Assembly: GCA_014526335.1 (NCBI GenBank)
Contig: JACTAT010000021.1
Span: 3,667,437-3,731,436, forward strand
Source: Chrysaora quinquecirrha
Lineage: Eukaryota; Cnidaria; Scyphozoa; Semaeostomeae; Pelagiidae
Reading direction: 5' to 3'
Length of the DNA stretch: 64,000 nucleotides
A program made the position numbers and the translations under genes. The notes beneath the pieces are model-generated. The model was given only the letters and a program-made list of their open reading frames with translations, ran no database searches and had not been told where the DNA came from. Of this stretch, positions 1,055-60,400 are shown piece by piece (within the stretch, counting starts at the first letter, position 1; every line of letters begins with the position of its first letter).

Positions 1055-1445
1055 CACTTTTTTTAATAAGCAACTGCTCAATAAGCAACTAGGGCTGAAC
1101 TGACCTTAACATTAAGCAACTTGAGGGCTCAATTGAATTACTGTAAGCCGCTAAGATCAAGAAGTAAAACAACCAAGCTTATTCTCTTTCTTGTGTTAGG
1201 AAATTGTTCTTCGTTCTTATGTTTTGCATGTTGAAGTTCGTTAGCTAGCGTTTTTCCACTTACTGTCTCCCAAAAGTCATGTTGTAGGCCTAACAGAGAC
1301 GATTTTGACCCGCGAACTCTGGGGTGGTTAGTAGGTAAAAAAAAATGTTAAGCAACGTTTAAGCAACTTTGAGGGCTGAAATGTCTAAAATTTTAAGCAA
1401 CTTTGAGGGCTGGACGAAAGTCAAGTTGCTTATTAAAAAAAAGTG
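1055..1445. mobile_element. AAGCAACT-class MITE with TA target, full length
   Basis: The outer ends are TA-CACTTTTTTTAATAAGCAAC and GTTGCTTATTAAAAAA..GTG-TA, 391 bp in total. The word AAGCAACT or a near match occurs at both ends and several times inside. At the right end 1395-1402 pairs with 1424-1431 across a 21-nt loop containing GAGGGCTGGAC. No open frame of note. Confidence 0.8.
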
Positions 1446-1449
1446 TAGG

Positions 1450-3393: not shown

Positions 3394-3509
3394 ATAGCTG
3401 GTGTGGACCTGCACCTTGTGCCCCAGACTGATGTTCTGGAATGAATACCGTGGCTGGGTAGGTACTCATTTAACCAACTTCGGAAGGATGGACAGCTGGA
3501 GCTTAAGGC

Positions 3510-3813
3510 GTTTTAAGGAACTGTCGAGGCTCAGATGAAAAACTGAGAACATTTTTTTTCAAGAGCAAGTCGATTTGTACAACAAAATTAAGATAATAGC
3601 AATATATTTCTCATTGTTCTTCCCAATAAGACTCCATGTTGTACATTTAAAGCTAGAAAATGAAGCAAGTTCATATGAATTTGCTGTAAAGATGAGTATT
3701 CAAACATACCTCGTCATGACAAGGAACAGTATAAGGAACTTCAGCCTCATTTTGCTGAAAAATTAAGGAACTCCAGCCTCAACTCAGACCAAAGGTTTCT
3801 TATAAAAAACGTG
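3510..3813 (-). mobile_element. AAGGAACT-class MITE, left end truncated
   Basis: Reverse-orientation relative of 31400, 41624 and 47825. It shares AAGGAACTGTCGAGGCTC, AAGGAACTTCAGCCTCA and AAGGAACTCCAGCCTCAACT. The right end is TTCTTATAAAAAACGTG-TA. The left terminus is missing. Confidence 0.75.
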
Positions 3814-4196
3814 TAATGTTCGTAGCGCTGGCTATCTGGCTGACGTCTTTTGAAATTGATCCAGCTTTTAAGTTTACTTTTCTAATATCTAAAATTCCTA
3901 TGCCTTTTTATGCTATGTATATATGCTATGTACATTAGAATCTAATCCCTTATCTATATTTAACAGCGTAAAAATGTCACCCAAAATGGCCAAAAATGTA
4001 AATGATTCCTAAGTTTACTTAGGTTTGCCAAGATATATAAAAGATATAAAATATATAAAGATATATAGCCAAGAAAAAATATTCCAGCATGTCTTGAATT
4101 TTTTCGTATCGCTCGATATCGTCGCCGTTCTCTAACTACTAGGGTTTTTAGGGGGCTTCATGCTCCTCCGTTCCCTTGAGAAGATCCTCTTGTTCC

Positions 4197-11940: not shown

Positions 11941-12309
11941 GGAATCAAGGGCCGTGCTGGGTGCAAATATCCCAAGGACCCGGCTAGCAGCTGAAGGTGA
12001 AGGTTAAATGGTGTATTTAGCACCATATGCTAGGATCTCAGAAGTAGGTAAACTAGTGAGATCTTGTCCTAGTTGTGACGCCACCGTGGCTTGGGCTCGA
12101 ACCAAGACCTCGTGGAGGTCTTGATACCATGAGACAGCTGTGTGACACCAGGAAACAACAGTGATTGACTAATTATTACTAATGATGGTAGTGGTTGGTG
12201 ACAGAAATTAACCGATCTCGCACTGATGGCTGGCTATGATCCACTAGACCAAACCTGCTACAATCTAACCTAATAAGACTAACAAGAAGCAGCCTACAAC
12301 GTACTCTTT

Positions 12310-13712: not shown

Positions 13713-14587
13713 TCCCCCAAGGGGGGTGCAATATCACGCGATCACGCGAAATTTTTCGACGATGCACGCACGATAAAACTTCATTTTCACGTGCATAAAA
13801 CTTTAGGCATTGCTGCCCGAAATTTTGAGCAGGATCAATATTCAAGATGCTTAACTTCATATATCTAAAGGATTGGCTTTGAAAAATTCTTTCCACGACG
13901 AGTTTGTAACAGGGAACACACAAAATTAAGATTTTAGGGGACTTAATTAATTCATCATACGAGAGAATGACAGAAATATAGTTAGCTGACAATCTTTGAT
14001 GGATAAAAGGGCGTTTCTGCATTCAAGCAACCTCTCAATTACACTCATCTTTTTTATAAGAAATCCATTTATAAGCAACTCAGTACTGAGATCAATATTG
14101 GTTAAGAAACTTTCAGTACTCGACCAAAAATGGTAAGAAACTCGCAGGTCTCAAGAATCTTTAGAATTAGAAATAAAGCATCGCGAAAACAAACTTCTGT
14201 TGTACCATAAGTGTCTATTTTGACAGAAAAAACAGCTGATGTAAACGTGAATTGTATTGCTTCTTCTATTTGCAGAATTTAAGTGTCAATTGCCCGTTTC
14301 GGCACTTAAAAATTTTGATTCTAAGAAACTGCTAAGAAACTTTCAGTACCAAATTTGTCCCAAAACTAAGAAACTTTGAGTACTGACCAAAAATCTTAGT
14401 TTCTTATAAAAAAAAAGAGTGTATGTCGCCAATACTGAAAATCACGAAGTCACAAGCCATACCAAGCATTTCACGCGACACGCAGGAGTTTAGATTCACG
14501 CATTCACGCGCAAAAGTATCTCGTTTCACGAAATGGCGCATGAAAAATGGTTCAATAACGCATCACGCAGAACCGCTTTGGGGGGCC
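13713..14587. mobile_element. CCCCCAAG..CTTTGGGGGG TIR element inserted in the GTACAGTGG array
   Basis: It begins CCCCCAAGGGGGGTGCAATA and ends CGCTTTGGGGGG. Both ends carry subterminal CACGCG runs (TCACGCGATCACGCG; CATTCACGCGC). It splits the minisatellite cleanly. An AAGAAACT MITE sits inside it at 14042-14421. Excluding that, it is about 495 bp. No transposase is seen. Confidence 0.65.
14042..14421. mobile_element. AAGAAACT-class MITE, full length
   Basis: 380 bp, TA-CACTCATCTTTTTTATAAG to CTTATAAAAAAAAAGAGTG-TA. The word AAGAAACT is repeated inside. At the right end 14368-14375 pairs with 14398-14405 over a 22-nt loop containing TTGAGTACTGACC. Related copies lie at 35342 and 51201. Confidence 0.85.
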
Positions 14588-14745: not shown

Positions 14746-15294
14746 ATCTCATGAGCGGTGGCATAGAACAGTTTATTCTTTGCTTTTAACACACTATCAT
14801 ATGGGATAATGCTAAGTTTTGTTGATAGAATTGCATTCTTGCTTGAAATCAATTGACACGAATTACAAAGTTCATACAAATTGACAGATTGGAGTGAGCT
14901 TTTGCGAAAGAATCTTAAGAGCCAACGCACGCGACATGAACCTCTGATCGGATTTTCTCAGGCCTAAAGGTGTGAACTAAGGTGAAAAGACAGTAGCATC
15001 TGTCGATTCCATGTGTGAATTTATTGCTTTTTGGACGAGTGGGTACGAATAGCTTGTGGGAATAGTACCATCCTAGCAGGGCCGTCGAGAGACAGTAAGC
15101 CTCGGGATAATGTAATCGTACCGGGCCTTTAAGAGGTTTAAAAGGGGGAAGCATTTAGGGAATTTCAATTTTTGCGGATCCCTCACTGCCTGGGCCCCGG
15201 TCCTCGGCCCTCGCTGGACCCCCCTCTGGATGGTACTGCAGCATCCTAGGTAGCCTAATCAAAGCCTAATTAACGTGCAATAGTGCGAAGGGTA
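14746..15294. other. Non-coding, no feature recognised
   Basis: No shared repeat or exon signal. Confidence 0.4.
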
Positions 15295-15440
15295 CACGTT
15301 TTTTTTATATAAGAACACTGAAATTGAAGAAAGCCATGCAATGTTCTTAATTTTTCCGATTTGAAGGCTCAAAATGTTCTTAACATGTTCTTAATTTTCT
15401 TGCTTTTTAAAAAGCTGTTGTTTTCAAATTGGGGGGTAAT
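15295..15440 (-). mobile_element. AAGAACAT-class MITE, half copy
   Basis: TA-CACGTTTTTTTTATATAAG, then AATGTTCTTAA, AAAATGTTCTTAACATGTTC and TTTTTAAAAAGCTGTTG. This is the reverse complement of the right half of the copy at 58681-59023. The other half is missing. Confidence 0.75.
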
Positions 15441-19300: not shown

Positions 19301-19309
19301 TTCCTCGGC

Positions 19310-21200: not shown

Positions 21201-21204
21201 ATCA

Positions 21205-21317
21205 TAATCATGATCATCTTCATCATCATCATTATTATCATCATCTTCATCTTCATCATCATCATCGTCTTCGTAAGCGTCATCATCATTATAATCATCA
21301 TAATCATCATCATCATT

Positions 21318-21355
<38 letters not shown>

Positions 21356-21660: not shown

Positions 21661-21750
21661 ATCACAAGTCATCACTCGATCGTAATCAGTCAATGGTACA
21701 TAATCCAAATCATGATGATTGTCATTTTCATAGTGATTATTGACATTATA

Positions 21751-21887
21751 CACACTTTTTTTTTGTAAGAATACAGTCTATAAGAATATTCAGTCTCAAA
21801 ATTGCCAAAGAACAATGGAAATTTAAGAATAACAATGGAAAGCTCGAGCCTCAGCAAAATTAGGATATTCTTATAAAAAAAAGTGTG
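21751..21887. mobile_element. AAGAATAT-class MITE, internally deleted (137 bp)
   Basis: TA-CACTTTTTTTTTGTAAG...CTTATAAAAAAAAGTGTG-TA with AAGAATATTCAG, AAGAATAAC and GAGCCTCAGC. Both ends are present, but the body is about 230 bp shorter than in sister copies. Confidence 0.8.
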
Positions 21888-22621
21888 TAGCCGTTGTTTT
21901 TACTTGCATGATCTGAAAAGTACAATCTGAACGCAAAGTACAAAAGTACAACCTTGTCTGCGCTTAGCTTCGAACTCACTACAGTAGTCATTCATCAATG
22001 ACAGATATGTTTAAGGATAGTTTCATTTAAGATCTCATCTCAGAATAATGTTAGCTTAAAAAAGATTACCATTTAATATGTAGATGATGGATGGTTGTTT
22101 TAAGCCTCAGGACATCATAAAAAGCACTTGAAAACGAGCAATGATTAGGCCCCAAAGACTCTTTGAGAATAAGCTGTTTTCGGAATGGCATGCTTGATGA
22201 CGTATGTGCAGGGGTACCCTGAAACTCCAAACCCAAAATTCTATTTTTTTGTGGAAAATACTACAGTATTATATGGTGACGCGAGTGATGGTCGTAGTAA
22301 TGGTGATATTGATTTCCTTGTCACACAAATTCCGGTCAGCAAAATATACCATATTTCAAATTTTTCCATTAAAGTGCTTTCCTTTTGCTGTTTACAATTC
22401 AGCATGTTCTTGGAATTTGATTTTATTGATGTTGTTAGAGGATCATATGTTAAGGGATGTTTATAGTGATCTGACGTAAATTGACAGTTGTTTGACAGAG
22501 ACGTACAGAGTGTTGTGGACCTCCAATCCATCTAAAGATCTGGTTTTAAAGGAAGATGTCGTAGTTAAAGTGGTAGTAGAACAAAGCTAGCTTGCATTTT
22601 GGAGGCCTTAAATAAATCTTA

Positions 22622-23001
22622 CACGCATTTTTTTTTATAAGGAAGTTCGGCTCAGGGTCAGTACTGAAAATTCCTTAACTGATGGTGAAAATTGAGTACT
22701 CAATAATCCTTAGCAATTCCTTAACTTCTTACTTTGTGATTCGTAAAAACAACCAATGGTCAAAGAAATATAGGTCATAAAGGTTTCAGAAGACAAGTAG
22801 AAATGAATACTGATTGAAAACCATTGGCGATAAGTATTGCTTGCTCTGTTAATTCAAAACTTCATTTTTTTATCGAAATGTTAAGTTAAAGAAAAAGTCA
22901 GATTCCTTAGTAGTATCCGGTCCAGTACTAAAAATTCCTTAACTTTTGCCAGCCCGAGTACTACCTTCCTTATAAAGCACTCCCTTATAAAAAAATGCGT
23001 G
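22622..23001. mobile_element. AAGGAATT-class MITE, full length
   Basis: 380 bp, TA-CACGCATTTTTTTTTATAAG to CTTATAAAAAAATGCGTG-TA. The internal words are AAGGAAGT and AATTCCTTAACT, next to CAGTACTG. Confidence 0.8.
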
Positions 23002-23014
23002 TATTGGGCCATTT

Positions 23015-27869: not shown

Positions 27870-27926
27870 ATGGTGATGATGATGGTGCTGATGATGATGA
27901 TGATGGTGATCATAATAATGATGATA

Positions 27927-27970
<44 letters not shown>

Positions 27971-28004: not shown

Positions 28005-28057
<53 letters not shown>

Positions 28058-28728: not shown

Positions 28729-29486
28729 ATCTAGGGCCCTAGCCAAATGAACTAAACATTTTTCACTGAACATTTGCTGAACATTTTCAGCCTCTTTTTC
28801 ATACAGTCATTTTGGCGCGAAACTCGAGATTTTTATTGAAATCATTGAGAAAGTTGCCGCAAATTATTGAAGTGTACACGCTTTTTTTATAAGGAACCTA
28901 CCTCATAGCCTAGTTCTTAAAGTTCCTTATTTTTGGGCCTCTTTTGAGGCAGTTGTAGTTCAAAAAGTTACTTAGAAGTTCCTTGATTTCAACTGCACAT
29001 ACAGTGGTCTTAACAATAAAAGAGAGACATCTGCATGTGAACAAAGCTCGAGACTACTCAAAGAAACATTGGATGCATGCTTAACGTACAATTTATGTGA
29101 TTTTCGACTGCAAATGAATAGAACGGGTTTTTTAATTCTTGATTGTTTGCAGTGATAAAAATATTCAACAATGAAAAGCTCCTTAGTGATTTTCTCTGTA
29201 GTAGTATAAGTTCTTAAAATTTTCGGGCCTTCTACATGTAGGTTCCTTATAAAAAAGAAAGCGTGTACATCGGATAAATGTTTAGTATTTGTTCTGTTTC
29301 GTGACAAAATGAACTGAACACACTAATGAACAATTTTGGCCGCGGAACATCTTCTACTCCGACCAAACAATCACTGAACAATGTTCAGTGACTGAAGAAG
29401 GAGGCCAAATGAACTGGATTTTTCACTGAACTTATATTTTGGACTATGCTCAATGAAATGTTCAATTCATTTATCCATGGCCTAAG
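28729..29486 (-). mobile_element. CTGAACATTTTC family element, interrupted copy
   Basis: Reverse relative of 55734-56077. Shared words are CACTGAACATTTGCTGAAC, TTCAGCCTCTTTTTCAT, AACTCGAG/ATTTTGGCG and TTTATCCATGGCCTAAG. An AAGGAACC MITE interrupts it at 28877-29265. Confidence 0.75.
28877..29265. mobile_element. AAGGAACC-class MITE, full length, nested
   Basis: 389 bp, TA-CACGCTTTTTTTATAAGGA to TTCCTTATAAAAAAGAAAGC, then GTG-TA. It is near-identical in layout, but inverted, to 37852-38250 (ACATGTAGGTTCCTTATAAA; TTCGACTGCAAATGAATAGA). It sits at a TA in the host element. Confidence 0.85.
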
Positions 29487-31399: not shown

Positions 31400-31764
31400 C
31401 ACGTTTTTTTTATAAGGAACCTTAACTCTGAGTTGAGGCTGGAGTTCCTTAATTTTTCAACAAATTGAGGCTGAAGTTCGTTATGCTGTTCCTTGTCGTG
31501 AGATATGTTTGAATACTAATTTTCACAGCAAATTCATATAAACTTGCTTCATTTTCTAACTTTAAATATAAATAGAGTCTTTAAGAACGATGGGAAATAC
31601 ATTGTTATTCTGCTATTTTTTTGCACAAATCGTCTTGTTCCTGAAAAAAATTATCCTTAGTTTTTCATCCGAGCCTCGGCAGTTCCTTAAAGTTCCTTAA
31701 TTTTTTGGGAATTTTCAGCCTCGAGTTCCTTATAGAGGTATTCCTTATACATAAAAAGACGTGT
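31400..31764. mobile_element. AAGGAACC-class MITE (GAGTTGAGGCTGGAG subtype)
   Basis: 365 bp, CACGTTTTTTTTATAAGGAA to ATAAAAAGACGTG-TA. At the left end 31414-31420 pairs with 31444-31450 over a 23-nt loop containing GAGTTGAGGCTGGA. Sister copies lie at 3510, 41624 and 47825. Confidence 0.85.
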
Positions 31765-31769
31765 ACAGA

Positions 31770-33655: not shown

Positions 33656-33925
33656 CATACAGATTTATGTATAGGCAGTAGCATTCAGATAGCGGTAACA
33701 GTAAAAGAACCAAGATCTTTTACCCGAATTACACGATAATCAACCTGAGGACCAATCCTTAGCCCCCCCCCCCTTAGCCCGTAGACATTGCTAACATTCA
33801 TTCCATGTCGTGAACAACGTTTAAATTGTTGCAACATCGTGAGCAAACATCCTCTTCTAAAATTAAACAATATTTGCAATTTCTTCCACATCTAAGGTCT
33901 CTAAGCAGATTTAATAAAACGAATA

Positions 33926-34205
33926 CACTTTTTTAAACAAGCAACCGCTCAATAAGCAACTAGGGCTGAATTGACCTTAACATTAAGCAACTTGAGGGCT
34001 CAATTGACTTACTGAAAGCAACTAAGAAGTCAAACAACCAAGCTTATATGCCTTCTCGTTATTAGGAAATTGTTTTGTTCTTATGTTTTGCATGTTGAAG
34101 CTCTTTAGATAACGTTTTCCAACATACTGTCTCCCAAAAGACAAGTTGTAGGCCTAACAGATGACGGTTTTGACCCGCCAAATCAAGGGTGGTTGTTCGG
34201 TACAA
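33926..34205. mobile_element. AAGCAACT-class MITE, right end missing
   Basis: TA-CACTTTTTTAAACAAGCAAC, then the same interior as 1055-1445 (AACTAGGGCTGAA; ATTAAGCAACTTGAGGGCTC; TGTAGGCCTAACAGA). It stops after GGGTGGTTGTTCGGTAC, where the 1055 copy continues. Confidence 0.8.
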
Positions 34206-34249
34206 ATAATTTCTTCTTGCTATCCAAACATAAAGAAACTAATTTTTCC

Positions 34250-34615
34250 AAGTAAGAATATTGTTTATTAGAATATTCAGGCTCAGAATCATCCTATTTT
34301 TAAGAATATTGTAAGAATATTGCTCAGCCTCAGGTCCCATATTTGTGTCTCATTTTTCAGCAGATGCCTGTTTTGCAATGTAAGAACGAAACTTCATGAT
34401 TGTTAACAACATTCTTATTGTTATAATAGTTCAATTTTTCTTACGCTCTACCATTTCCTCGTAATGAGATAACTTTTCTTTAAACTATGTTCCCCTGAAA
34501 CCATATCAGGTTTGAAAAATAAGAATACTTTAAGAATATATTCAGGCTCAAAACGAACATTTCTTAAGAATATCGAGGCTGGACAAAATTTATAGTATTC
34601 TTATAAAAAAGAGTG
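34250..34615 (-). mobile_element. AAGAATAT-class MITE, left terminus lost
   Basis: Inverted near-copy of 46679-47051 (ACTATGTTCCCCTGAAACCA; CTTCATGATTGTTAAC). At the right end 34566-34573 pairs with 34595-34602 over a 21-nt loop, then CTTATAAAAAAGAGTG-TA. Confidence 0.85.
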
Positions 34616-34617
34616 TA

Positions 34618-35341: not shown

Positions 35342-35462
35342 GCACTTGAAAATTTTGATTCTAAGAAACTGCTAAGAAACTTTCAGTACCAAATTTGTCC
35401 CAAAACTAAGTAACTTTGAGTACTGACCAAAAATCTTAGTTTCTTATAAAAAATGAGTGTAT
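35342..35462. mobile_element. AAGAAACT-class MITE, right half only
   Basis: Matches the last ~120 bp of 14042-14421 (AAAATTTTGATTCTAAGAAA; TTTCAGTACCAAATTTGTCC) and ends CTTATAAAAAATGAGTG-TA. One stem word has changed to AAGTAACT. Confidence 0.8.
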
Positions 35463-37588: not shown

Positions 37589-40500
37589 GTCAGTGGCATG
37601 ATTTATCTTTTTCTATAATCTCTGTAATTTTTAGTTCTGTCATTTTTGTGTAAAATTGAGTCACTGTTAGCTAAACCGCAGCAAAAACCAAGGTTTTTTT
37701 GGTTCAAAATAGAACCTCAATATTCACGAAAGTCGTTTATTTTCGGCCATATTTCTAGATGTCTGCCAGATGCACGATTAAGCAAGGTAAAGAAAGCGAA
37801 ACGTTGTTCGTAACAATATTGGATCTTTACAGAAATTTCACTTATGTTCTACACGCTTTTTTTATAAGGAACCACTTTATAAGGAACCTACATGTAGAAG
37901 GCCCGAAAATTTAAATAACTTTTACTACTAAAGAGAAAATCATTAAGGAACTTTTCATTGTTGAATATTTTTATCACTGCAAACAATCAAGAATTAGAAA
38001 GCCCGTTCCATTCATTTGCAGTCGAAAATCACATAAATTGTACTTTGCGCGTGTATCAAATGTTTCCGTGAGTAGTTTCGAGCTTTGCTTACATGCAAAT
38101 GTCTCTGTACTGTTGTCATTAAACTGTATGTACAGTTAAAATTAAGGAACTCTTAGGAACTTTTGGAACTAGAATCGTCTCAAAAGAGGTAAAAAAATAA
38201 GGAACTTTAAGAACTAGGCCTTGAGCTAGGTTCTTTATAAAAAAAAGCGTTTATAACCGAAATAAAGACGTTAAATTCCACTTTCAATTCACGTTTGCTG
38301 TGTTGGTATTTTTTTGTTTTGATATTAACTTTCTCGTTGCCTGCCGAAAAGTAAGCTCAAAAACGACCGATTGATACAAAATATATACCCCAATATATGA
38401 GGGAATTTATAGTGAAAATAGATTCAGATTCCGACTTAACTTAGAATGCCCTACTTTTTCATATACATTCAGCTTATTTGACGTTTGAAATTTCAAGGGC
38501 GTTTTGTATAAAATTGTACCCAGATTCAACGAAAACTATATTCGAACCGCAGTAAAAACCAAGACTTTTTTGATCGCAATGAATTCTTGTAACCCATATG
38601 TCTTAACAGATAGTATATCAATCTCAAGGAACGACTACTATCTTAGAAGTAATATAAGATATCGACAAAGGTTTCTTTAGGTTTTTGATGTTTAGGTTCG
38701 TTTGGTTACGTGATTTTTGATGATACAATAATTGGTTGCCTTATTTCTGGAGGCTTATATGTGAACGTCATTTGCGCTATGTTTGAATCAAAGGAAACTT
38801 GTCTTCCCCTGTCTTCCCCACGAAGATGTATACAATACAAGGTTTTTTTAATAGCAGAGGATTTTCTAGGATTTGAAAGGGGTTGTGTGCAAAACTTTTT
38901 GACTTCGAGCGAACTTTTGCTCGTTTCCAAATGAAATATGCTCCTGGACTAATCGAGGAGCTGCTCATGTCTCCGGAAAGGGGTACGGGGATCCGTTGAG
39001 AACAAAAGGATTTTTCGGGATTTGAAAGGGATTTTCCATCCAGCTTAAGGACCTCAACAAACTTGTACTTAAGGTTACAGATATGATTCCAACCCGAGGG
39101 GCAATTCACTTCTTGGAATCTCACACACCCTTATCTTGGATCCCTATAGTTTTCATAGAAATCCCTTGGAAATCCTTTTGTTAACCGGGAATCTCGTACG
39201 CCTTTTCCAGGGGTAAATGCCCCTCGATCCCGCACATTGCTCAATCTCTATTCTGTATTAAGTTCTTGATACTTAACTTGCTATAATTTTCCCCTCGAGG
39301 GAGACCCAAAGGTCAGAAACGGGGACCAATCTCGTAAACCCCCTTTTTAAAAATCCTGTTTTCCTCCGTTCTGAATCTCTTCGGAGTTTTTCAATTTTTG
39401 ACGGAAATCTTGCACTTATTATAAGATTGAAACGCCCCTTGGTCAGAATTTTCTCAGTTGAACCTAGTGCAGCGAACCCCTGAAAGAGCTTCTCTGTATA
39501 GAACCGTATGTCTGGCCCATTACACTTTTTGTTTCAATAAGCAACTGGACTTTGGTCCATCGATCAAGAGTTGCTTAACATATCCACGCTAGCGAATCTA
39601 TAATCACTACTGTGGTGGATAATCACTACTGTGGTGGTACTATTTGCATACTGTGGTGGCAGTTTTGGCGTACTGTGGTGGATAAATACTACTTGTGGTG
39701 GTTTACCATGCTTGCGGTGGTGGCAGTTTTGGCGTACTGTGGTGGATAATCACTACTTGTGGTGGTTTACTATGCTTGCGGTGGTGGCAGTTTTGGAGTA
39801 CTGTGGTGGATAATCACTACTGTGGTGGTATTATTTGCGTACTGTGGTGGTAGGTTTTGCGTACTGTGGTGGATAATCACTACTTGGGGTGGGTTATAAT
39901 GCTTTATGTGGTGAATACGAAATCATAGCAAAACTCTATAGATCAAGCAAGAAAAAACCACAAAATCCACCACAGTACGCCAAAACTGCCACCACCGCAA
40001 GCATAGTAAACCACCACAAGTAGTGATTATCCACCACAGTACGCCAAAACTGCCACCACCGCAAGCATAGTAAACCACCACAAGTGATGATTATCCACCA
40101 CAGTACGCCAAAACTGCCACCACCGCAGGCATAGTAAACCACCACAAGTAGTGATTATCCACCACAGTACGCCAAAACTGCCACCACAGTATGCAAATAG
40201 TACCACCACAGTAGTGATTATCCACCACAGTAGTGATTATAGATTCGGTAGCGTGATATCTAGTATTTCAGCCCTCACAGAATGACTGGTACCCCCTAAG
40301 CTTCTTATTTTGGCTCTTTTCTGATTTTTCAATGTAGTTGACAAGTTTGCAAGGATGTACAGTATAAAGAAAGCTACAGTATTTCACCAAAAACTTTTGC
40401 AATATCTCAGCCCTAGTTGCTTATGGACCAGTTGCTTATTAAAAAACAGTGTATAGAATGTTAGGCCCGTTAAATGACGAAATTTTTGGTTCCTTTACGA

Positions 40501-42388
40501 GATACTGTAGGTTTCAACTGACCTGCCATAAAAAAGTAATTTTCCAAGCAATTCTGAATTCAGAATTCAGTGAAATCATTAGCATTAACAGTTTCCTTTT
40601 GATATTCAGTCACTGTTGGGATATTCATAGCAAAGGCATAGATCTCGTAATCTGCTATTAGCCAGTAAAACACTTCAGATATTGAAACTGAACTACGGAT
40701 TATCGAATTTTCTTCATAACTCTGAATAACTTTCTCATTACAATCCGCTAAGGTTTGACTTGCGTTATCCTATCAACATAACTTTGTATTTAACTACATA
40801 TATACGAAGTTTAATCATCTCTTCTAAACCTAAAACTGAGAAGTTTCGGGATTCCAATCCTTTTCTCGTTTTGTTTCAATTATTCGTGAATTTTAAAACA
40901 AAATTTGCTGCACTTTCCCTCTTGAAGCGACCGCAAGCTCGGTCGTTGTAAGCGAAGACACCCTCAGAATGTCCACCATCTTCCAGACTGTTTGACTTAG
41001 ACTTACTACATGAGTCGTAGTTATTGCTATTGAATTGAATTGCTGGACGCTCAAACTAACGACTCATTCCCTTTCGTTTGGCGATAGTGGTTTGAAATTT
41101 GCTGCCTCGTTTCCATTATTCTATTCGGCTAAAGATGTCGCGACCCCCCGACAGAAATGTCTCTCGTCTCAGATCTCACTTTTGAAACAAGTCCCTGACT
41201 GAAGCAAACAACAACAACATCAATTCAATTCAATATGAGCGAAAGTTAGGGACTTGGGAAGTAAGTCTTTGTTTGACTGGCATGAACATGACGTTTTCTT
41301 TTATTGCGGCATGATAAACCAAGAATATTTGTAATTTGAAATGTAATTTGCCGGAAATTAGGTTGAAATTTTGTTTTAGCCCTTAATATAATTTCCAGGT
41401 AGTGAGTTTGATTGACTGTAATCGATTGTATGGATTTGCTAACAAGTAAACTTTAGTTGCATCAGCAAGGCAATATATGAGAATTTCGGTTTATATGATG
41501 CTTTATTGCAAAGCGCATATTACTTGGAATGCTAATGCAATAGAAGGGTGTCTGTTAATGTTTGGAATATATGTTTCTGGTGCTGCATGATTGATACCTC
41601 TTCGATTAAGGTTTCGCTCAATACACGTTTTTTTTATAAGGAACCTTTGGTCTGAGTTGAGGCTGGAGTTCCTTAATTTTTCAACAAAATGAGGCTGAAA
41701 GTTCCTTATACTGTTCCTTGTCCTGGGACATGTATAAAATACTAATTTTTACAGCGAATCCATATAAACTATTCTTCATTTCTAACTTTAAGTATAAATG
41801 GAGCCTTTTGGGGAAGAACGATGGGAAATATATTGTACTTCTGTTCCTTTTCCGTACAAACCGTCTTGTTCTTTAAAAAAGAGTTTCTTAGTTTTTCATC
41901 CGAGCCTCGACAGTTCCTTAAAGTTCCTTAATTTTTTGGGAATTTTCAGCCTCAAGTTCCTTATAAAGGTGTTCCTTATAAAAAAAAACGTGTATAGTTG
42001 TATTTTGATTATGATCATCATGATAGTGGTCATCGTCATGGTCATTATCATCTTCATCATTATTAACATTATCCTGATCTTCATCGTCTTCGTCGTTATC
42101 ATGTTCACTGTCGTCATAATTATCGTCATTATCATCATCATACTCACCATCATCACCATCATTATCGTCATGATCATCGTCATCATCATCTTGATTATTA
42201 TTATCATTGTCATTATTATATCTTCATTGTCATGATAATCATCATCATCATCACCATCATAATCATCATTGACATTCTCCTTCTCATCATCATGATCATG
42301 ATCATGATCATGATCGACATCATCAACCTTATTATCATCATAATCATTATCATCATCATCAATGTCATCATCAACATTATCATCAACG

Positions 42389-45400: not shown

Positions 45401-48400
45401 GACCCTAACTGTCAAGTCATCCTCTCAATAGTTCCCCCTATTCACGTCCCCCTTTCCTTCTCAGATATTCCTCTCATTCTTTCACAATTGACACCTTCAA
45501 GAGGCCCTTGTTTTCCAGAAATCTCTCACTCCAATAATCCTTCCTTGATTACGTTCCTCTGTCGCTTTTTCAAATACTTAACCCTCTCACTCTAGTATCC
45601 TCTCGTAGGCAAGCGTTTGTTGTAATAACCATTTGACTCTACTAATCCTCGCCTTCAGCGTCCCCCCTTCTCCAATTATCCTCTCGCTCTATCCCAATCC
45701 TTTCCCTATTGTAATGTCCATGTATGCATTGAGATATACTCATGTCTATACCTCGCCTGTATCTTCCATCTTACCATATCTTCCAATACTGGTCCCCCCC
45801 GCCCAGATTCATTTAGGTTTCTGGTAATTTTCTTCCCTTGTAACTAAACCGAATTTTCCCCATTAATTTCAATGAAAGACAGTTCTAGCATTTGCAAAGG
45901 CTACAAGTATATTATTGGAACTGTCTCTATGTTTTGTTCTTTGAGGCCTGAAAATATATTCAAGTCCGTGTTTCAAAAAGCTCAGCTTGTTAATCTGTTT
46001 GGAGTTGGCTTTTTTAGAATATACTTTTTAGATATATTGTCTTTTTTAGATATTGCCCCCTTTTTCGTAAACGGCAGCAGCAACCGTATTGAAACGTTTT
46101 TCTCATGAAAGTTCCGTAAACACTGTGAAGGAGCATGGTCAATGGAAGGAGTGAACGGTCCCGCACCCGTTGCTTTGATTTGAAGTGCACTATTTTTCTA
46201 AATTGCGAGAAACATATTTGGACATAATTGTAATCTTTTCGAAAGAAAGCTCGAAAAAACGCGAAGAAACTGTTCAAACTAGCTATTACTTCAAAAGCCC
46301 TATTGTAATTTTTGACTACAACACCTTTCTACTGAGTTAAATGGATTGTTTAAAGTGGACCATATTGGCTCGATTTTTCCATTTTCGTTAGATTTGGATA
46401 AATTTATTTAAATACTTAATTTCGCCCTGAAATACATTTAATGGAATTTTGACAGTCAAATTTTGTATCAAATTTTCGCGTTTCCTGGTGACTTTTGAAA
46501 CTTTTCATGATTAATGTCTGTGTTTTCTCTAAATTTCCTTCCTTTCTAATCAACGAAGCAGTTGAATAATTTCATTTTTATTGACTGCTTCTTAATGCAT
46601 TTTCCTCATTTTTGGTTTTTAAAGATTCTTTCCAATTTCGCATCGGAAACCAAATTCGACGCCATTTAGAATTACGTACACTCTTTTTTTTTATAAGAAT
46701 ACTATAAATTTTGCCCAGCCTCAATATTCTTAAGAAATTTTCGTTTTGAGCCTGAAGACATTCTTAAAGTATTCTTATTTTTTCAAACATGATATGGTTT
46801 CAGGGGAACATAGTTAAAAAAAAATTACGAGCGTAAATGGCGGAGCGAAAGAAAAATTCAACTATTATAACAATAAGAATGTTTTTTAACAATCATGAAG
46901 TTTCGTTTTAACATTGCAAAACATGAAACTGCTGAAAAATGAGGCACAAATATGCGAGCTGAGGCTGAGCATATTCTTACAATATTCTTAAAAATTGGAT
47001 GATTCTGAGCCTCAATATTCTTATAAACTTTATTCTTATAAAAAAAGAGTGTAACATGCTTCGACGTTCGTTAGCAACACCGTGTCAACGTCCGTTAGCA
47101 ACACCGTGAAACGATTATACTTGATTTTTCAATAGACCTTTTCAAAGAGGCCTGGGTCGGGCGCGATATTTTTTCTGGAAAATGGTAGATATTTCCGAAT
47201 ATTTCCAGTAAGGGAATCCTCTCCGCGTGCAACAACTGGAATTACGATCGTTTAAAGAGATGCTGTGCATCAAATTTTGCTTCAAATTCACCTTAAATTG
47301 AAATAAAAATGAAAGAAAGGCTTCCAATCCCACCGTATCTGCACAAGGAGACATTTAGTGACATATTTTCCTGTTTTTGAGTTTCTTGTATCTTGTTTCC
47401 TGAATTTAAACAACTTTGAGGATTTAAACGTCCCACAGGGATACAAGCTACTGAGGTTCCACAAGTTCATTCATAGTCTAAATTTGAGTTTTAGTTTGTT
47501 TTACATTATTTCTTTTCGATTAAGTTAATCATGATTACCTCTCGCCTAAATCTTTTTGAATCTTCTGCAAACTTAACTCTGATTACAATACTCATCATTT
47601 TAAGCCTAGCGCGTTAAGGCTTTGTCGTGAGCCTTAAGACTTAGATGACTCATCATTATCTTATTAAGACCTACAGTTAAGCTTTAACCTCAAAATAAAA
47701 TCTAACGAAGGATCGGCGCACGGGGGGTTCTTGGCCAAATTTTGAGTAGGGGTGTGTCGCCAACATATTCAAAATGGTACCGTTGGCTAGACTGATTTTT
47801 CCGAGAAACTTGTACCCTTGGCTACACGTTTTTTTATAAGGAAAATTTGGTCTGAGTTGAGGCTGGAGTTCCTTAAATTTTAAACAAAATGAGGCTGAAA
47901 GTTCCTTACATATACTGTTCCTTGTCGTGGGATATGTATAAATATTCATTTCTAACTTTAAGTATAGATGGAGCCTTTTGGGGAAGAACGATGAGAAATA
48001 TATTGTACTTCTCTTCCCGTTTTCGTACAAATCGTCTTGTTCCTTAAAAAAGAGTTTCTTAGTTTTTCATCCGAGCCTCGACAGTTCCTTAAAGTTCCTT
48101 AATTTTTTGGGAATTTTCAGCCTCGAGTTCCTTATAAAGGTGTTCCTTATAAAAAAAACGTGTAGACTAATTTCTACCAAAATGATATCCTTGGCTACTA
48201 ATACGCTTGAAATTGTTGGCCCTATAAGTCGGAAATTTTGTAGATCTACTTGTTTCTTTTATTCGTTTCTCTAAAAATGGATCACTTTCCAAGGCTAAAA
48301 AGCCGAAATCATGACAATTCTCCATATCAATATTGCTAAATTTGGTACCGCTGGCTTGAGCAGAGTTGTTTAATACTATACCCTTGGCTAGACCAAAATT

Positions 48401-51400
48401 GCCAAAAAGTAAACCCATGGCTAGACTAAAAAGCCGTAAAATTATACCCTCTAGCGCGGAACATCCCTAGGTACCTTTACTATGGAAGAACCCTCCCCCC
48501 GGGGATCGGCGAGATCTATCTCTTTTTTTACGAGGTTTCTTTTCTAATTATTTATCCGGTTTGCTGATGTGTGATTACTCAGTTCTTTTCTTCACCCTAG
48601 AATAAATATTCGTAACTTATCCGCTATTTTTTTTAATCCAATCTGAAGAGAATCGTTCTTCTTCAATATTATGGAAACAGTATTAGATTAATTGGTGATA
48701 CATGGAGTCGTCGGTTTTTTTTTGCTCTGAATCGGCCTTTCAATTTCCTTTCCTCTTCTCATAATAACCCTAATTTAGGCCCAGACAGCTTTGCCAAATC
48801 CCGATTGGTAAGCTTTCAACAAGGAAGAAATGTAGGCTTAGGGATACAGAGGACGCGCGAATTGTATGATCAAGGATGAAGGGTGCTTTGCCTTTGCTTT
48901 CCTCTTCCTTTTCTCATTATCATCCTTTGATAGGGCCAGACAAAGTTTCATCTAACTAAGTGTCAAGCCTTCCACGGGGAAAAAGGTTGAAAAAGGGATT
49001 AAACAGTACATTGTAGTCCAAAGAGGAGGGAACTCTGTCTCCTTCGTGTGCTCAATAATCGTCGAAGTTTAGTTTTTTTCCCTTTGTAATAAAAACCCTA
49101 ATTTAGGCCCACTGCTGTTTTGCGTCACGAGCGGTTAGCGTCCCAGTTCACTGAACCATTCGAGTCTCACGGAATAAGGGTGAGATTTCCTACGAATCGA
49201 AATCGTAATTCGGTTGACCTGAGGCACCTGCCATACGCGAGCCATACGTTCAGGCCTACCGGAGCCGGGAGCTAATGTGACTGTTGTTCCCTCGCTTTTC
49301 AAGAGAACGACAGAACAGTGAACATTTGATTTCGCATAACACCTAAACTCGTCCCCAGCGTTCAAAGGACCGTTTAAGTAAACGTGTTTAGCAATACATT
49401 TATCTTTTATTGCAGCCTTGTTTGCTGAACAAGATCTGGACGACTATGACATCATATACCCCTCACTTGTATCAGAATCAGGCGATTTCATTTCTCATGG
49501 AGTACACGAACAACACGTCAACCGAATACGACGCTCATTGGATAAAACAGACCAATCAAATACGAGTACACAGCAGCCATTGTTTTATAAATTGAAATTG
49601 AACTCAACTGAAATTCACCTCAACTTAACTATAAATGAAAATCTTGTTTCGGCTGGGTTTGTTATTGAAAGAGAAAGCGGAGCAATCGTACATCACTCGA
49701 CATCATGTTTATATCAAGGCCATATTGCGGGGCAGGAAAATTCTATTGTTGCAATCAGTAATTGCGAAGGATTGGTAAGTGTCTATATCTATTCAGAGTC
49801 GCTTTGAGTTCTTGACATGAGTCCTAGTTATAACTACAACCTTCTATAGTTTGTTGTTGTTGCTGTTGTTGTTGTTGTTGTTGTTGTTGTTTTTGTAGTT
49901 GTTGTTTTTGTTTTTGTTTTTGTAGTTGTTGTTGTTGTTGTTTTTGTAGTTGTTGTTGTTGTGGATCAACTCTTCATCACTAAAAATACTGTTTATATCA
50001 AGGCCACATTGTGCGGCAGGCGAATTCTTAAAAGGACTGGCAATGTTCCCTGTTCATAGTCTTTTAGTTTCTCCAGGCTTCCGACACCTTAGCTAGCTGG
50101 GTGAGATTACGACGCCACAGCGCCTTCACATATCAGTATTCGGCAGACCATTCATCGCAGTAACTGCCTTACTGTGCTTGAATTAGCTGTTGCTGTTGTT
50201 GTTTTTGTTGTTGTTGTTTTGATCATCTCAAACTGAAACTCGTGAACTACAGTTTTTATAAATAAACAACTGGACTTTTGGTCCAGCCCTCAAAGTTGCT
50301 TAAGATATCTGGTATTTCAGCCCTCACAAAATGACTTGTTCCCCCTAAAAATTCTTATTTTGGGTCTTTTCTTGCTTTTCGATGTAATTGACAAGTTTGC
50401 AACGATGTTATTTACAAGGGAAGCTTTCTTACCCAAAACGTTTAGCGAAATGCCAGGCCTAGTTGCTTATTGACCAGTTGCTTATTACAAAAAAGGTGTA
50501 GGCCAGTTGCACACCAAATTTCGCCGCGTCTAGTCAGATAGATTGGATAGAACAACATCATACTAAGTAAAATTTCTCTAGTACACTTTTTTTTCAATAG
50601 CAACTTGACTTTGGTCCAGCCCTCAAGACTTAACATATCTAGGATTTCAGCCGTCACAGAATGCCTGGTACCCCCTAAAACCTCTTATTTTGGCTCTTTT
50701 CTGGCTTCTCAATGTAACTGACAAGTTTGCAAGGATGTACAGTATAAAGAAAGCTATTTTACCAGAAATTTTAGCACAATCTCAGACCTGGTTGCTTATT
50801 GAACAGTTGCTTATTAAAAAAAAAGAGTGTAGCGGAGGTTCTTAAATTTTGGCCGTCTCAGTCATAAGCAGTTTCTTTTGAGTAAATTAGATGGAGAGAT
50901 TATGGATTTTAAAGGGTGTATCTCACAGCCATTGGCTTTGAAAGTATTTAGTAGGTTTAACATTTAATCTCTCAAAACACACAGGGAAAAGCTGGAATTT
51001 CAATCATCATCAAGAACGGGTTGTTTCACATAGGCATTGAATACTTTAAACTAACATATTCATTGATCCCACGATACTTCGTCTTAAGTATCCAAAACAA
51101 CGAGGATGTGCCATGAGAAAGTTGTGTTTCTAAGCGGATTAACAGAGCTGGATCAACCCTCAACCAATAACATATGTTTTAAGGCCATGAGAAGACGCTA
51201 CACGTAATTTTTTTATAAGAAACTCTTTATAAGAAACCCAGAATCTCGAATGGCGAAAAATTTAAGAAACTCCAGTACTGGAATATTTTTGTGTAGGAAA
51301 CTTTTCACCTCAGACAGCGAAAAATTTTCTTTGAATTCCCATTTTTCGTCTGCGATAAAGCATTTCTGCGACAAGCAGGCAAACAGGAAACCCATATGCG

Positions 51401-54400
51401 TTCAAATACGATCGATAAATGGGTTTGGAACATCGTTCAGATAGAATAACTATGTTGCAAATAAAGATATTCAAGAAACTCGTAAGAAATTTTCAGTACT
51501 CAAAATTTTAAGAAGGTTATAGTACTGGATCAATTTTTTAGTTTCTTATAAAAAAATACGTGTATACGTACACGCCTTTCTTAAAAACTATGGCATTTTA
51601 CGGCCTATGGGGTGTTTCTTATTTTGTCTTTTTCATTTGTTGTATTTTCACCGGGTTTCATGTATCAAAATGTTTTCTTTTAGCAAGGTATGGTATTGAC
51701 CGATTTCGGTGAGGATTACATGATAGAACCGGTGCTCGGTTACAAACAGTCCGGAAAGAAAGCCAATCCGCATTTGGTATACAGGGCTGATCATGTGAGA
51801 AAAGCAAGAAGTGTTGGGTCTAGAAAAGACCAGTTGACATGTGGTATTTCAGGTAATAAGTCTATTGATAGCCTTAGCCATTCCCAATAATTCAAAAATA
51901 TTAGTTTGATATCCTTACGTAATCTAATCATGTTCAGTTTTTTAGCCTCCCCCAAACTGAGATCTTTTCCGACGGTCGTGATTTGGGGGCCCCCTGAGCT
52001 CTCCCTAAGCCCCCTCTCGAAATCACTTAAAGTTGCTGCTGCTAGAAGTCGACTAATTGATGTACTTGTATCGTATTGCTGGAAAAGGGGGAAATTAGAA
52101 GGCCCCTGGAAAGCTCTGGGAAACGCACGCGTTGAAAAAAATTTTCAATTTCCCCTGGGAATCAGCCACAAAAGTGCTCCAGTTAAAATAATGACTTTGT
52201 ATGAAAAGCTTTCGAGTAATTTGATTGGCAGGCGCCCTCGGACGCCGCGGAAAAGTTGAAGTCGATCCGACTTTCAAAACGCGCGTAGCGGAGCGTCCAG
52301 AGGCCGCTGCTGTTACAAAAAACATTAAAAATACAATGGCCGCTCCGCTGCGCCCTAAAAAATCAGCTTAGTGGAAAACCAGCTTTAATGCGCCATTGAA
52401 GACGATGATTTAACTCCAAATTTGCATAGCAACTAACTGTGACCCATAACCAAACCTATATTAGCAAAAATCAGGAATATGAATGATGTTTGATTTTGAA
52501 AACAGTATATCACTGTTCTACTTTGACTTATTTTTAATAATTCAACAGATAGTTGAAGGAAATCCTCAGCGTGTGCTAAGAATACGATTAGTCGTCTTTA
52601 TCCAAACATTTAAACTTGTTTCCTGGCTAATTTCGACCAGTAAAATAGATTACGCAATCTCACAGTCAAGTCTTCTTGTTGAATCAGTAATGACACAGTC
52701 AGAGAACTTTCTAACTGGGTTTCTTTGTCGATTTTGTTTGAGTATTTGGAAACAATGCTTCACTGTAAAGGCCTGGCTAAACTAGGAGGCGCGACACTGA
52801 CGTCCCCTCGGTGTCTCCCAGTTTAGCCACCTCGGAAAAATTGTAGGGTGCGAAAAAATTAATAGCAAGAGACACGCAAATGTTTCTGGGAGACAACAGA
52901 AACATTTCTTGTCACAGCGACATGCAAATGACTCGAGGGACATGTTGCTCGCTTGTCACTCGCATGATTAGCCACCCTGGGAGACATACCGAATACAGTG
53001 TCGCGCGCAACAAGTCTAGCCATAGCGTAAAGACACCGAGGGGACATCAATGTCGCATGCGACATGTCTCCTAGTTTAGCCAGGCCTTAAGAGACTGCTT
53101 CGGGATTAAATGCAAAACGCTTTGACGCTTCCGTTTGGCACAAACTAGCTTTCAAGAAATTCGATCTTCGTTGAACTACTTAGGTTCTCCAATAGTTCTA
53201 CACGCTTTTATTTTATGACAATCCTACAATCATGGACAAAATATGTTGAGACAAATACCCACTCATATTGAAGTGGGGTCTGTGTTTGCCCCCCCTCTCC
53301 CATTCAATGTTGATCACTTGTTCATGAATTTCCATGACACGATGTTCCCGCATGATGAATCGCTTACTTCGAATGTGAATGAAACAAAATATCCAACATT
53401 GAAGTGGGGGAGGGGTGTTAGGTGGGGCAATAAGGGAAATGAACGTACTTTTTCTGAATTTTCTCAATAATTTTGTCCATGATTGCTGCTCAAGGTCTGG
53501 TGCTAAAAATCCCCTATTTTTGAGCTGCTCTTTATTCAATTACAGTTCAAAAAATTCCTTAATAGTTCTTAAATCTTAACTGGATGTTTTAGTGTCATGC
53601 CTGTTTTAGAGATGCACTTGTATGTGAGCGAAGCTGAAACTATTCAACGAAACATCTCATAAACACAAGGAATCTTGTTCTCGTTTAAAATCCAACATCA
53701 AGCTCTGGTCAGCCTACCATTTCGGCAGATGTGTTTTGAAGCTTTTTTGCTAGATCTACCTTTTCAGATTTGAGTCTGTCAAAACAAGAATTTTCCGTAA
53801 ATGCCCTAATAAACGCCCAATGCGCTTATTTAATTTTGAGGTTTCAGGGGGGGGCGTTTATTAGAGACGGGCGTTTAATAGAGCATTTACGATACCGAAA
53901 ATACGCCCTTAGCAACTTTGACAGATGTCAAGGCACAAGTCATGGCTCTCCTAGCTGTAGCTAATAGACACCCATAGCTACTGTTGTTAGAATTTATACG
54001 GATTGAAGCTTACACCTCTTTCGTAAAGATATAGGATTTTTGCTAATTTAGATTTTGTCTGTCTTTTAGAAAACGGAAGAACGTTACGAGAAAAAGAGAT
54101 ACTGGGAGATCGAGAGAACTTGAGCGAGCCCTAAGGAGAGCATCGAGAAGACAACGTCGCTCTATTTCAAAGGAGCGATTCGTAGAGACTTTGGTTGTTG
54201 TGGATAAAACAATGCTGTCGTTTTATCATGGACAAAATCTCGAGCAGTATGTCCTAACCGTTATGAATATGGTAGGTAGTGTTTCTGATACTTGACCATT
54301 TTAAAAAGGCCTGGTTCGGCGCGACATTTTTCTGGAAAATGGCGGACATTTTGAGTACGGGAATAACTACGGAAAGTGAGTACGGGAAGTACGGGAATAG

Positions 54401-57400: not shown

Positions 57401-60400
57401 ACTGTTTAAATTTTTCGCGTTTGAACTGTAGTTGAAATTAGTTTTTTGTGGCTCAGACAAGAGCCATTATAGCACGAGCCCTATGGGGAGAACCCATCTA
57501 CTGTAACTGCTGTCTGACTACTGTAACTTAATAATTCGGTGTTTATAACGTTCATTTTTGGCATTCTAGTTTTGGCATGGAACACGATGGCCTAAGCAAT
57601 CCTTGTAAATACGCAATGAATGATGACAGATATATCATGTCACCATCTCAATCATTGTCAAATCATCCTTACATGTGGTCATCTTGCAGTAGAGCTTATA
57701 TAAGGAAATTCTTATTGTAAGTATATAATATAAATGCTTTGTCAAAATCTGCCTTTGCTTCTGTAGCTACCACTCAGCTGCCTTTTAACTTGAGCCTGCA
57801 AAGCAGGTAGCCATTGATACCAAATCAGCCTTGGCAAGACAATATTCTTCCTTCCAAGAATTCATCCGTGGCCCTGAAATCACGTGAACTCCACTGTGGA
57901 GGAGCATCGGGCCTGTCTCATTTTCTGCACAGAGATTCGAAAGTTGAAAAGCAGTTGAAAAGAAATTCTTGACTTTCGCTATCATTAGAGTCCGGGGAAG
58001 TTAGCAGGTTAGCTTCCCATGGCATCCCAAATGCCAGCTGGTGGGGGCTTTACCCAAACTGCTTTTGGCAGCCGCTAATTACCTAGCATGGATATTGAAC
58101 ATAGAGTATAAAAGATACTATTAAATTTGATTTCGAAAAACCATATTTTTAAACGTTTAATTTGATTTATCTTTTTCGCGAAAACCAAGGAATTCATATA
58201 ACCTTAACACAAAGTAGTTTTTACTTTAATCAAATAATAATATAAAAAAGAATAGTGCTCTATAAAATTATGTCCTTTTGTCGTTGTTCAAAGTTAATTT
58301 AAAAATTAGAAACCTTCATCCCAAATTGTTTCACTGTATGGATAGTGAATCAGTGCTAACAATATAATTTTTTTATTGGCTTGTGGTGTCGGGAAAATTT
58401 TTGAGAATTTTACGTAAACTAATAAAGGTCCACGAATAGAATATTTTAAGCTCGTCATTCTAGCTTAATCTAGTTGTGGGTATGGAAAACTGGAATTTTG
58501 AAATTTGGGGTGTTTAAATACAGAATTTTGGTCTTTAATTGGCTACAGTGGATTCTTGGTCATGGAACCCTGATATTTTGGTATTTGTAGTCGATTTTGT
58601 ATAAAAATTTCACAAGACATTTCCTATCATTTTTGTGACAAATTCAATCAGAAAAACTATTTAAAAACCTCTTGGTTTTCGCGTTTTTTATAAGAACAAA
58701 GTTGATAAGAACATAAGACTTCAGGGGCTGGAAAGGTAAGAACATGCTAAGAACATTGCAAGGCTTTGTGAAGCTAGAAACAAATTAGAATTTACATTCT
58801 TAAATGGCGCTAGAAAACAGGTGAACTATCAATCATTGTGAATATATGTGACATTATTACATGTGCGTCCCTTTTCGTAGCAATTATCACCCAATTTGAA
58901 AAACAACAGCTTTTTAAAAAGCAAGAAAATTAAGAACATGTTAAGAACATTTTGAGCCTTCAAATCGGAAAAATTTAGAACATTGCATGGCTTTCTTCAA
59001 TTTCAGTGTTCTTATAAAAAGTGTATGTTTGAGTGGCGTAAAATTCCTGCAATATCTCTCTGGTCTTTGTCCTTGGAGAGGATTCCCTTACTCAAGACGG
59101 CTACCATTTTCCAGAAAAATGTCGCACCCAACCCAGGTCTCTTTGAAAAGGTCTATTATTGATGCAGGTTCCTTGCCTCTCTGTTTTTCAATCTCGTGAA
59201 TTTGAAGAAAAATTGCTCGCTACCTCTTCTAAAACGACCGAAATCCTGTTCGTTGTACACAGAATAGTTCCCTTTACTCTAAATTTCCGCCATGAAATAT
59301 GTTGCTTGCTTCCCTTACTCCATATGCCCGCTATGCAAAATCTCGATGGTATCATGAGGTCTCAGCTAGTGGTTTTTATACATTCATCGATGTACTTTCT
59401 CTTGTAGCAAAGGCTTCGGTTGGTGTTTGGACGATGAGCCCAGCAATCACAAATACGAGTTCTCTTCTGTTTTGCCTGGTGTTATATACGACCTTGATCA
59501 GCAATGCAAAATGAGACATGGTCGACAATCTGGTGTTTGCCACGTGCAATGGGTCAGTAGATTTGTATTTTCTTGTAATGCTTTGCTGTTCCTCGAAAGG
59601 ACTTTAGCTCCACCGTCGCTTCGTTGTTTTCAAAGTGTTACTGCAATATCAGTTACGAGGACTTTTCGCAACATTTCGAATCACTTTTGGAAATCTATGG
59701 AAATCACAAGTTTATGCCGTTGTACATTTTTTCTTCCTGGGGCATTTTTCAGCATGTCCATTTCATACTGAATTCGTCAACTTGTTCATTTCATGCTGTT
59801 GTCTTCTGCATGTTAATTTCGTACTGTATTTGTCAGAAATTCATTTCATGCTTTATTCATTAGCATGTTCATTTCATGTTGTATTCGTCAGCTTGTTCAT
59901 TTCATATTGTATCCGTCAGCATGCTCATTTCTTTCGGTTTGCGTCAGCATGTCCATTTTATGCTGTATTCATCAGCATGTTCATTTCATGTTGTACTCGT
60001 CAGCATATTCATTTCATACTTTATTTGTCAGCACAGTATTCTTAAGCATGTTTATTCCATGCAGTATTCGTCAACATATTCATGACGTACTGTATTGGCA
60101 AATTACGTTAATCCAAACATACATGCTTATAAAAACTCACTGTGAAAAGTTTTTTAAAGGGCATTTATCTTCGAAGTTTTTTGAATTTTCTATTCTCACG
60201 AATCTAATATTTCAGATTCAAGATGGCGACCCATGCTCAAGACTTTGGTGTCGGTTTGAATATCAATCTACAACAACTTGTGTCATGAGAAATAAACCCG
60301 CAGCTGATGGCACCTATTGTAAGCACGGACACGTGAGTAGATTAACTGTTTAATTTTTAGACGCCCTTGGCCATTAAAGCAGCCACTATCATAGCCCATT

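Follow-up and report, generated by a model that had tools for sequence, protein, structure and literature searches.

The 64,000-nucleotide window analysed here (Chrysaora quinquecirrha; GenBank assembly GCA_014526335.1, contig JACTAT010000021.1; C157:3667437-3731436) is populated by a clan of miniature inverted-repeat transposable elements (MITEs) with a characteristic end design: TA-CAC, at most 3 bases, a T run, (T/A)ATAAG, and then a family-specific word, the variants of which we term dialects (Table 1). A blast search with 36 paired elements, the window's own among the queries, recovers 25 merged places, some of them short fragments only, which amount to 7,064 bases or 11.0% of the window. 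With at most one mismatch allowed, TTTTTTATAAG matches the window 35 times against 5.93 expected, and 0 of 100 shuffles reach 35; Rfam has no match in the window at its gathering thresholds. A pattern search of the whole genome (328 Mb, 740 contigs) returned 7,976 exact left-end and 7,922 exact right-end matches, the reversed controls giving 3 and 36, respectively. These counts are lower bounds on copy number; corrected for the proportion of sampled ends that the patterns recover (42/65 left or L ends, 33/59 right or R ends), they place the genome very roughly at 12,000-14,000 ends of each type. The clan, first noticed in a sequence-only reading of the window, is thus real.

The ends were dissected in a sample comprising the window and 50 further loci (L001-L050; 352,302 bases, 168 end candidates), which were picked for holding CACTTTTTTATAAG, so that dialect frequencies in them are biased. 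From 166 distinct ends, 16 whose word differs by more than one change from six core words were left out, as were 26 of the remaining 150 that were neither L nor R, leaving 65 L and 59 R ends. A second sample, from contig C1, is free of the CACTTTTTTATAAG choice but limited to exact pattern matches. The 36 paired same-word elements (230-420 bp filter) are 243-414 bp long, with most clan members at 330-415 bp, and they show the usual marks of MITEs, namely short length, high copy number, terminal inverted repeats and a target duplication. At about 380 bp they are, judged by length alone, too short for a transposase gene, and one open frame of 132 aa overlaps an element (L041:6570-6970). Blast clustering separates the elements into 13 clusters, the listed alignments between which are confined to the terminal 117 bp at most (about 100-117 bp), while the highest identities within families, 96.3-97.5% over about 400 bp, suggest fairly recent movement. 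That the classes are unrelated MITE groups whose A/T-rich ends look alike by chance is hardly credible: the interiors of the 13 clusters do lack matches to each other among the matches listed, but the terminal ~100 bp can be aligned between many clusters, a common geometry runs through them, and the genome-wide counts, set against their reversed controls, contradict chance ends. The families have accordingly not turned out to be unrelated apart from their A/T-rich ends, the prospect that the sequence-only reading had itself raised.

The two ends of an element differ in how the word is repeated. At the L end it recurs in the same orientation as the terminal word at +15, ~+47 and ~+58 (or ~+79), and the R end has inverted copies of it at ~37, ~71 and ~82 (in some ~82 and ~93) from the terminal word. 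These offsets are largely common to different dialects and asymmetric between the two ends, and the internal words of the 36 elements mostly keep a single orientation per end. Counting exact copies of an end's own 7-mer at 10-105 nt, there are 109 direct and 1 inverted in the 65 L ends, as opposed to 0 direct and 112 inverted in the 59 R ends; the sorting into L and R used the first inner site, whose orientation is therefore given by construction, and the further sites are independent of it. A wrongly oriented own word at the set offsets was seen in just one of the 65 L and one of the 59 R ends. Hence the proposal that each family's word recurs and pairs with its own reverse complement holds at the R end only, the L-end copies being direct. 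Four of the five word/partner pairs offered as examples are exact reverse complements, the fifth (34566-34573 with 34595-34602) matching at 7/8 positions, and the loops are 21-24 nt as described. Five of the six proposed word classes likewise stand as given, while in the sixth a terminal AAGGAAG goes with internal copies that mostly read AAGGAATT. Terminal and internal words often disagree at their eighth base, which is C in the former and T in the latter. In several dialects a second short word, which differs between dialects, lies a few bases past the first, e.g. AGGGCT with AAGCAAC, AGTACT with AAGGAAG, and AGAACT or AGTACT in the AAGAAAC dialect; no second hexamer dominates in the AAGAATA or AAGAACA dialects.

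Elements are built from one end of each kind. Among the 36 paired same-word elements, 34 combine L with R and two combine L with an unclassified end, with no L+L or R+R. Without the word filter, 40 pairs at 150-450 bp comprise 35 L+R and two L+unclassified with the same word, one L+R with different words, and two including a changed-word end; the word is thus the same in 35/36 close pairs with both ends classified. The one close L+R pair whose ends disagree in word, AAGAAAC against AAGAATA (L023 1332-1516, 185 bp), could be a chimera or two abutting fragments. In the first 3.1 Mb of contig C1, where 185 exact-pattern ends were listed (100 L and 85 R; the other 15 of the 100 R places listed lie past 3.104 Mb and were left out), all 51 convergent pairs at 100-450 bp are L+R, and divergent and tandem arrangements below 450 bp number 6 in all. 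Because family members are related copies, the 51 pairs do not represent 51 independent events.

Covariation between inner and terminal words was scored with the invariant TAAG as the sole anchor, since a general alignment made with MAFFT from a non-redundant set of 34 of the 59 R ends displaced some inner words by one base; all 165 ends were used without L/R sorting, and the 3 nt after TAAG were compared with those of the terminal word. At direct sites these 3 nt agree with the terminal word in 52/59 (+15; shuffled mean 13.6), 29/36 (+47; 8.7) and 24/26 (+58; 13.5) cases, and at inverted sites in 46/58 (~37; 11.1), 27/32 (~71; 7.7), 35/39 (~82; 8.1) and 12/16 (~93; 5.3), the observed value being reached at each in 0 of 2,000 shuffles. 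After collapsing to sequence families the agreement is 16/22, 10/13 and 6/6 at the direct sites and 16/23, 8/11, 13/16 and 6/9 at the inverted ones, in the same order; shuffles, which leave some relatedness among ends in place, reach these values in 0 of 5,000 trials except at +58 (88/5,000) and ~93 (8/5,000). Class matching agrees, with 61/65 at L +15 (13.5 expected) and 48/59 at R ~37 (11.7 expected). In the C1 sample, with the first variable base left free, the same base is found in 61 of the 62 listed strings (shuffled mean 22.7), a comparison covering 62 of 100 listed L matches; 28 of these strings are distinct and 27 of the distinct ones agree. Six of the 62 listed L ends on C1 carry a further dialect, AAGAAAG (e.g. 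at 468713 and 478926). In the window, the L end at 14049-14110 carries AAGAAAT, AAGCAAC and AAGAAAC one after another and reads as a decayed or mixed-dialect copy.

The direct sites are as tightly coupled to the terminal word as the inverted ones, beyond what a stem explains. This bears on the first of the two explanations that the sequence-only reading had put forward, a selected structure, in which the inverted end words would form a hairpin or cruciform in DNA or RNA and compensatory changes would keep the stem. The complementary covariation at the inverted sites (46/58 at ~37) is what such a structure predicts, and in single-stranded DNA folding of 10 R ends from the non-redundant 34, four did better than their shuffles (z -3.23 to -3.56) and the word stem was part of the lowest-energy fold in seven. 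The other six folded no better than shuffles (z -0.58 to 0.45), however, and the word at L ends is direct, with covariation just as strong (52/59 at +15); moreover, whenever both ends of a close pair were classified, just one of them was an R end, so that only one end could pair. A selected hairpin calls for complementarity at both ends and a stable fold, and this combination is not what we find. As the direct-orientation sites covary as strongly, we reject selection for a hairpin as the principal account and regard it as highly improbable. The second explanation, concerted change in repeated protein-binding sites, fits the same-orientation sites that covary and the spacings that stay largely fixed across dialects. 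Quite improbable, too, is that recent short duplications or homogenisation, by slippage or gene conversion, made the words alike with no binding protein exerting selection. Within-element repeats are indeed similar, and two-copy tandem repeats of period 31 lie at 14080-14142 and 33954-34023 of the window; yet recent duplication would not be expected to give the same offsets and orientations in clusters that differ elsewhere, and the constant TAAG followed by a variable nnnn argues for site-by-site constraint. We know of no process of conversion confined to 8-nt words.

The junctions point to insertion at TA. In 40 convergent pairs of 115-414 bp (words differing at no more than one of their seven bases), TA stands at both sides in 38, and in one the flanks match over 6 bp. 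Seven elements have matches across their joined flanks, of which two show a clean TA duplication, one shows no net duplication, and four have gaps or mismatches where the flanks join. The two clean cases are L050:5298-5549, nested in another clan member, for which insertion-free homologues show one TA and at least 6 homologous places are identical there, and L037:9225-9632, for which insertion-free homologues (a neighbouring repeat) likewise show one TA. The case without net duplication is in L013 (1868-2614), where an AAGAACA-class element harbours an AAGGAAG-class one inserted at a TATA site. Tc1/mariner (IS630) transposases target TA. The same anatomy and binding-site logic might therefore be served by an enzyme of this kind with a bipartite DNA-binding domain, to which the TA at the ends and the two TA empty sites, with the reservations at L013 and at the junctions, would be suited, as would the second short word that trails the first by a few bases in several dialects. 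We consider this unlikely, given that CACTA/CMC transposons are known from the literature for long subterminal arrays with repeats in both orientations and for CA..TG termini.

Several features of the clan point towards CACTA/EnSpm (CMC) transposons: the CAC..GTG termini, as found in that superfamily, the asymmetric direct and inverted subterminal repeats, and a TA duplication that falls within the 2-5 bp given in the accessible part of the CMCT description, where most lineages have CA..TG ends (PMC12730594). The same source describes ESTA, EnSpm-like transposons with TA target duplications. The clan has CA..TG termini in common with most CMCT lineages and TA duplications in common with ESTA; as far as that part of the account goes (PMC12730594), ESTA was described from fungi and in coding elements, whereas the clan is known here from non-autonomous copies. 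The closest precedent for the arrays comes from the soybean CACTA elements Tgmt* and Tgm1. Their reiterated subterminal motifs, arranged asymmetrically in both direct and inverted orientation, allow stem-loops to be drawn and are family-specific within one species (PMC2613891, also for the following details). Their 17-bp motif consists of sub-motifs of 7 and 10 bp, with a GC-rich and an AT-rich part; TNPA binds CACTA subterminal repeats, a TNPA-like protein is presumed in soybean, and the speed of coevolution between the repeats and the binding exon is raised there. A TCTTA part is common to the En-1 and Tgmt* motifs, which by our own comparison recalls the invariant CTTA/TAAG of the clan. Like the soybean elements, the clan has asymmetric direct and inverted motifs that differ between families of one genome. 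Unlike them (large elements with 3-bp duplications and 4 left-border plus 24 right-border motifs), it consists of MITEs of about 380 bp with TA duplications and mostly 2-4 sites per end, and its layout is similar across six or more word classes, rather than two families, of an animal genome. The earlier suggestion that no described MITE group has this exact pattern stands insofar as literature searches of limited depth found none, but the principle had been published for soybean CACTA, going by the available text (PMC2613891). Jozin CACTA elements of Chenopodium have a 12-bp subterminal motif in 19-23 copies over both ends that differs between several species; these are coding elements compared between plant species, and the available portion of the report describes no fixed few-site geometry (PMC8978399). 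ISL2EU/PHIS elements resemble the clan in having a 2-bp target duplication in animals; in the section available, however, they duplicate AT within A|AT|T and have terminal inverted repeats usually starting with GG (PMC4482050), unlike the TA duplication and CAC ends seen here.

The genome contains CACTA-type transposase domains: Transposase_21 is found at 15 places, 13 of them over the cut-off and several in open frames of 799-914 aa (C102:1308866, C208:38202, C424:2745325, C348:207690 and 11 others), and in 0 of 14 control genomes. At one such place (C212:172981) a clan end 3.2 kb off faces away and was not counted. A 469-aa open frame beside a clan end in L015 was considered as an autonomous partner and discarded: Pfam finds nothing above cut-off in it, and the contig looks like a spliced gene with a 143-bp clan element beside an exon, no gene lying between clan ends. 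Open frames of 545 and 468 aa occupy opposite strands in L051 (557-2191 and 2402-3805), and the 545-aa frame runs up to what looks like a splice site, with a 143-bp clan element nearby; its 469-aa part has nothing above cut-off in Pfam. A 998-bp pair in L017, considered as a longer element, reads as two fragments, and convergent L/R candidates of 2,838 and 7,113 bp on C1 (2387517-2390354 and 1011774-1018886, respectively) were set aside, L+L and R+R being equally frequent at that range. Inspection by eye of the 60 longest open frames revealed no recognisable transposase at those of the 70 unpaired ends that lack repeated interiors.

Taken together, we favour the proposal that these are MITEs of a clan of terminal-inverted-repeat transposons, probably CACTA/EnSpm-like (CMC) ones with TA duplications, whose word sites are bound by a protein of an autonomous relative and whose words change in concert. 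The membership of CACTA, which we infer from termini and duplications that fit CMCT including ESTA and from the resemblance of the array to that of soybean CACTA, is likely. The observations themselves extend to the anatomy, a TA duplication at two insertion sites, a common word at most positions, the combination of L with R and the copy number; protein binding, synapsis, coevolution and the superfamily belong to the interpretation. The protein in question, a transposase or a TNPA-like partner, would bind the words; the asymmetric word arrays would set the order of assembly, and their geometry would join one L and one R end, with cut-and-paste movement at TA following synapsis. Were the preference of the protein to drift, elements carrying the new word at their sites would be the ones moved, giving rise to dialects with a constant layout; a family's word would thereby drift together with its protein, all sites of an element changing in concert while their spacing stays. 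Mixed copies, i.e. AAGGAAG/AAGGAAT and the terminal C versus internal T, are compatible with such stepwise change.

Several observations weigh against this proposal. Words are not always uniform within an end: AAGGAAG ends have GGAAG at the tip but mostly GGAAT inside, and at L +47 the word is nearer to AAGAACA in 6 of 10 scored AAGGAAC ends. With at most one mismatch, three inner own-word sites are kept in only 33 of the 65 L ends (two in 13, one in 18, none in 1) and 40 of the 59 R ends (two in 9, one in 7, none in 3), and the offsets are not universal, the L-end words of L042:4626-5016 lying at 15, 40 and 51. The dialect words are only 1-3 bases apart, so that the proteins of different dialects may not be orthogonal. 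On C1, 83 of the 185 exact ends have no close partner, and unpaired convergent ends at 450-12,000 bp, with 3 L+R, 2 L+L and 2 R+R, show no L+R excess. As for the target site, the homologues of L013:2040-2427, the case of no net duplication, read TATA, the four gapped or mismatched junctions are not interpretable, and a TA duplication is also compatible with Tc1/mariner. Finally, no autonomous copy with clan ends was found among the sampled loci; the Transposase_21 loci themselves were not read.

A bolder and distinctly more tentative possibility is that the clan represents an undescribed TA-targeting animal transposon lineage that needs one L and one R end, a requirement whose logic would resemble that of RAG's 12/23 rule, with at least seven dialects, each having its own diverged DNA-binding protein, under one architecture in one genome. 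If true, it would offer a natural panel of orthogonal transposon end/protein pairs in a single genome. More generally, changes of DNA recognition by transposons are hard to study, as several sites and the protein must shift together and intermediates are usually lost. One genome with thousands of copies, six word classes or more (contig C1 adds a seventh) and mixed copies makes coevolution of sites and protein directly testable, just as the L+R composition does for a two-end synapsis rule. A further caution is that what look like covarying stems at MITE ends can turn out to be arrays of binding sites that depend on orientation.

Table 1. Clan elements in the window, by position in the 64,000-nucleotide stretch
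Position	Strand	Feature	Dialect	Ends and remarks
1053..1447	+	complete element	AAGCAAC	L end left, R end right; TA both sides
3503..3815	+	truncated element	related to AAGGAAC	R end at 3815; terminal word AAGAAACC, inner words GGAAC
14049..14423	+	element	AAGAAAC	R end intact; L end decayed, words AAGAAAT, AAGCAAC, AAGAAAC
15293..15424	-	R-end fragment	AAGAACA	
21749..21889	+	141-bp short derivative	AAGAATA	L end left, right end unclassified
22620..23003	-	complete element	AAGGAAG/AAGGAAT	R left, L right
28875..29267	-	element	AAGGAAC	R end left
30899..31261	-	complete element	AAGAATA	R left, L right
31400..31765	-	element	AAGGAAC	R end left
33924..34209	+	fragment	AAGCAAC	L-type end left
34253..34617	+	element	AAGAATA	R end at 34617
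35342..35461	+	R-end fragment	AAGAAAC	
37850..38253	+	element	AAGGAAC	L end left
40256..40453	-	truncated element	AAGCAAC	L end right
41622..41994	-	complete element	AAGGAAC	R left, L right
46677..47053	-	complete element	AAGAATA	R left, L right
47823..48164	-	complete element	AAGGAAC	R left, L right
50248..50500	-	short element	AAGCAAC	L-type end right
50582..50831	-	short element	AAGCAAC	L end right
51199..51564	+	complete element	AAGAAAC	L end left; other end unclassified by automatic rule
53489..53661	unassigned	fragment	related to AAGGAAC	
58678..59025	+	element	AAGAACA	L-type end left; right end unclassified by automatic rule, first inner word without TAAG

Apart from the clan, the window contains frames at 49382-49804 and 60100-60350 whose translations resemble exons of the ADAMTS type. 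Trinucleotide runs and long tandem arrays, the latter with units of 51 bp and 64 bp, extend over 18336-19306, 39608-40232, 21163-21664 and 27870-28248. The 64-bp unit is oppositely oriented at 39608-39904 and 39965-40232, and a similar unit is present at 26102-26379.

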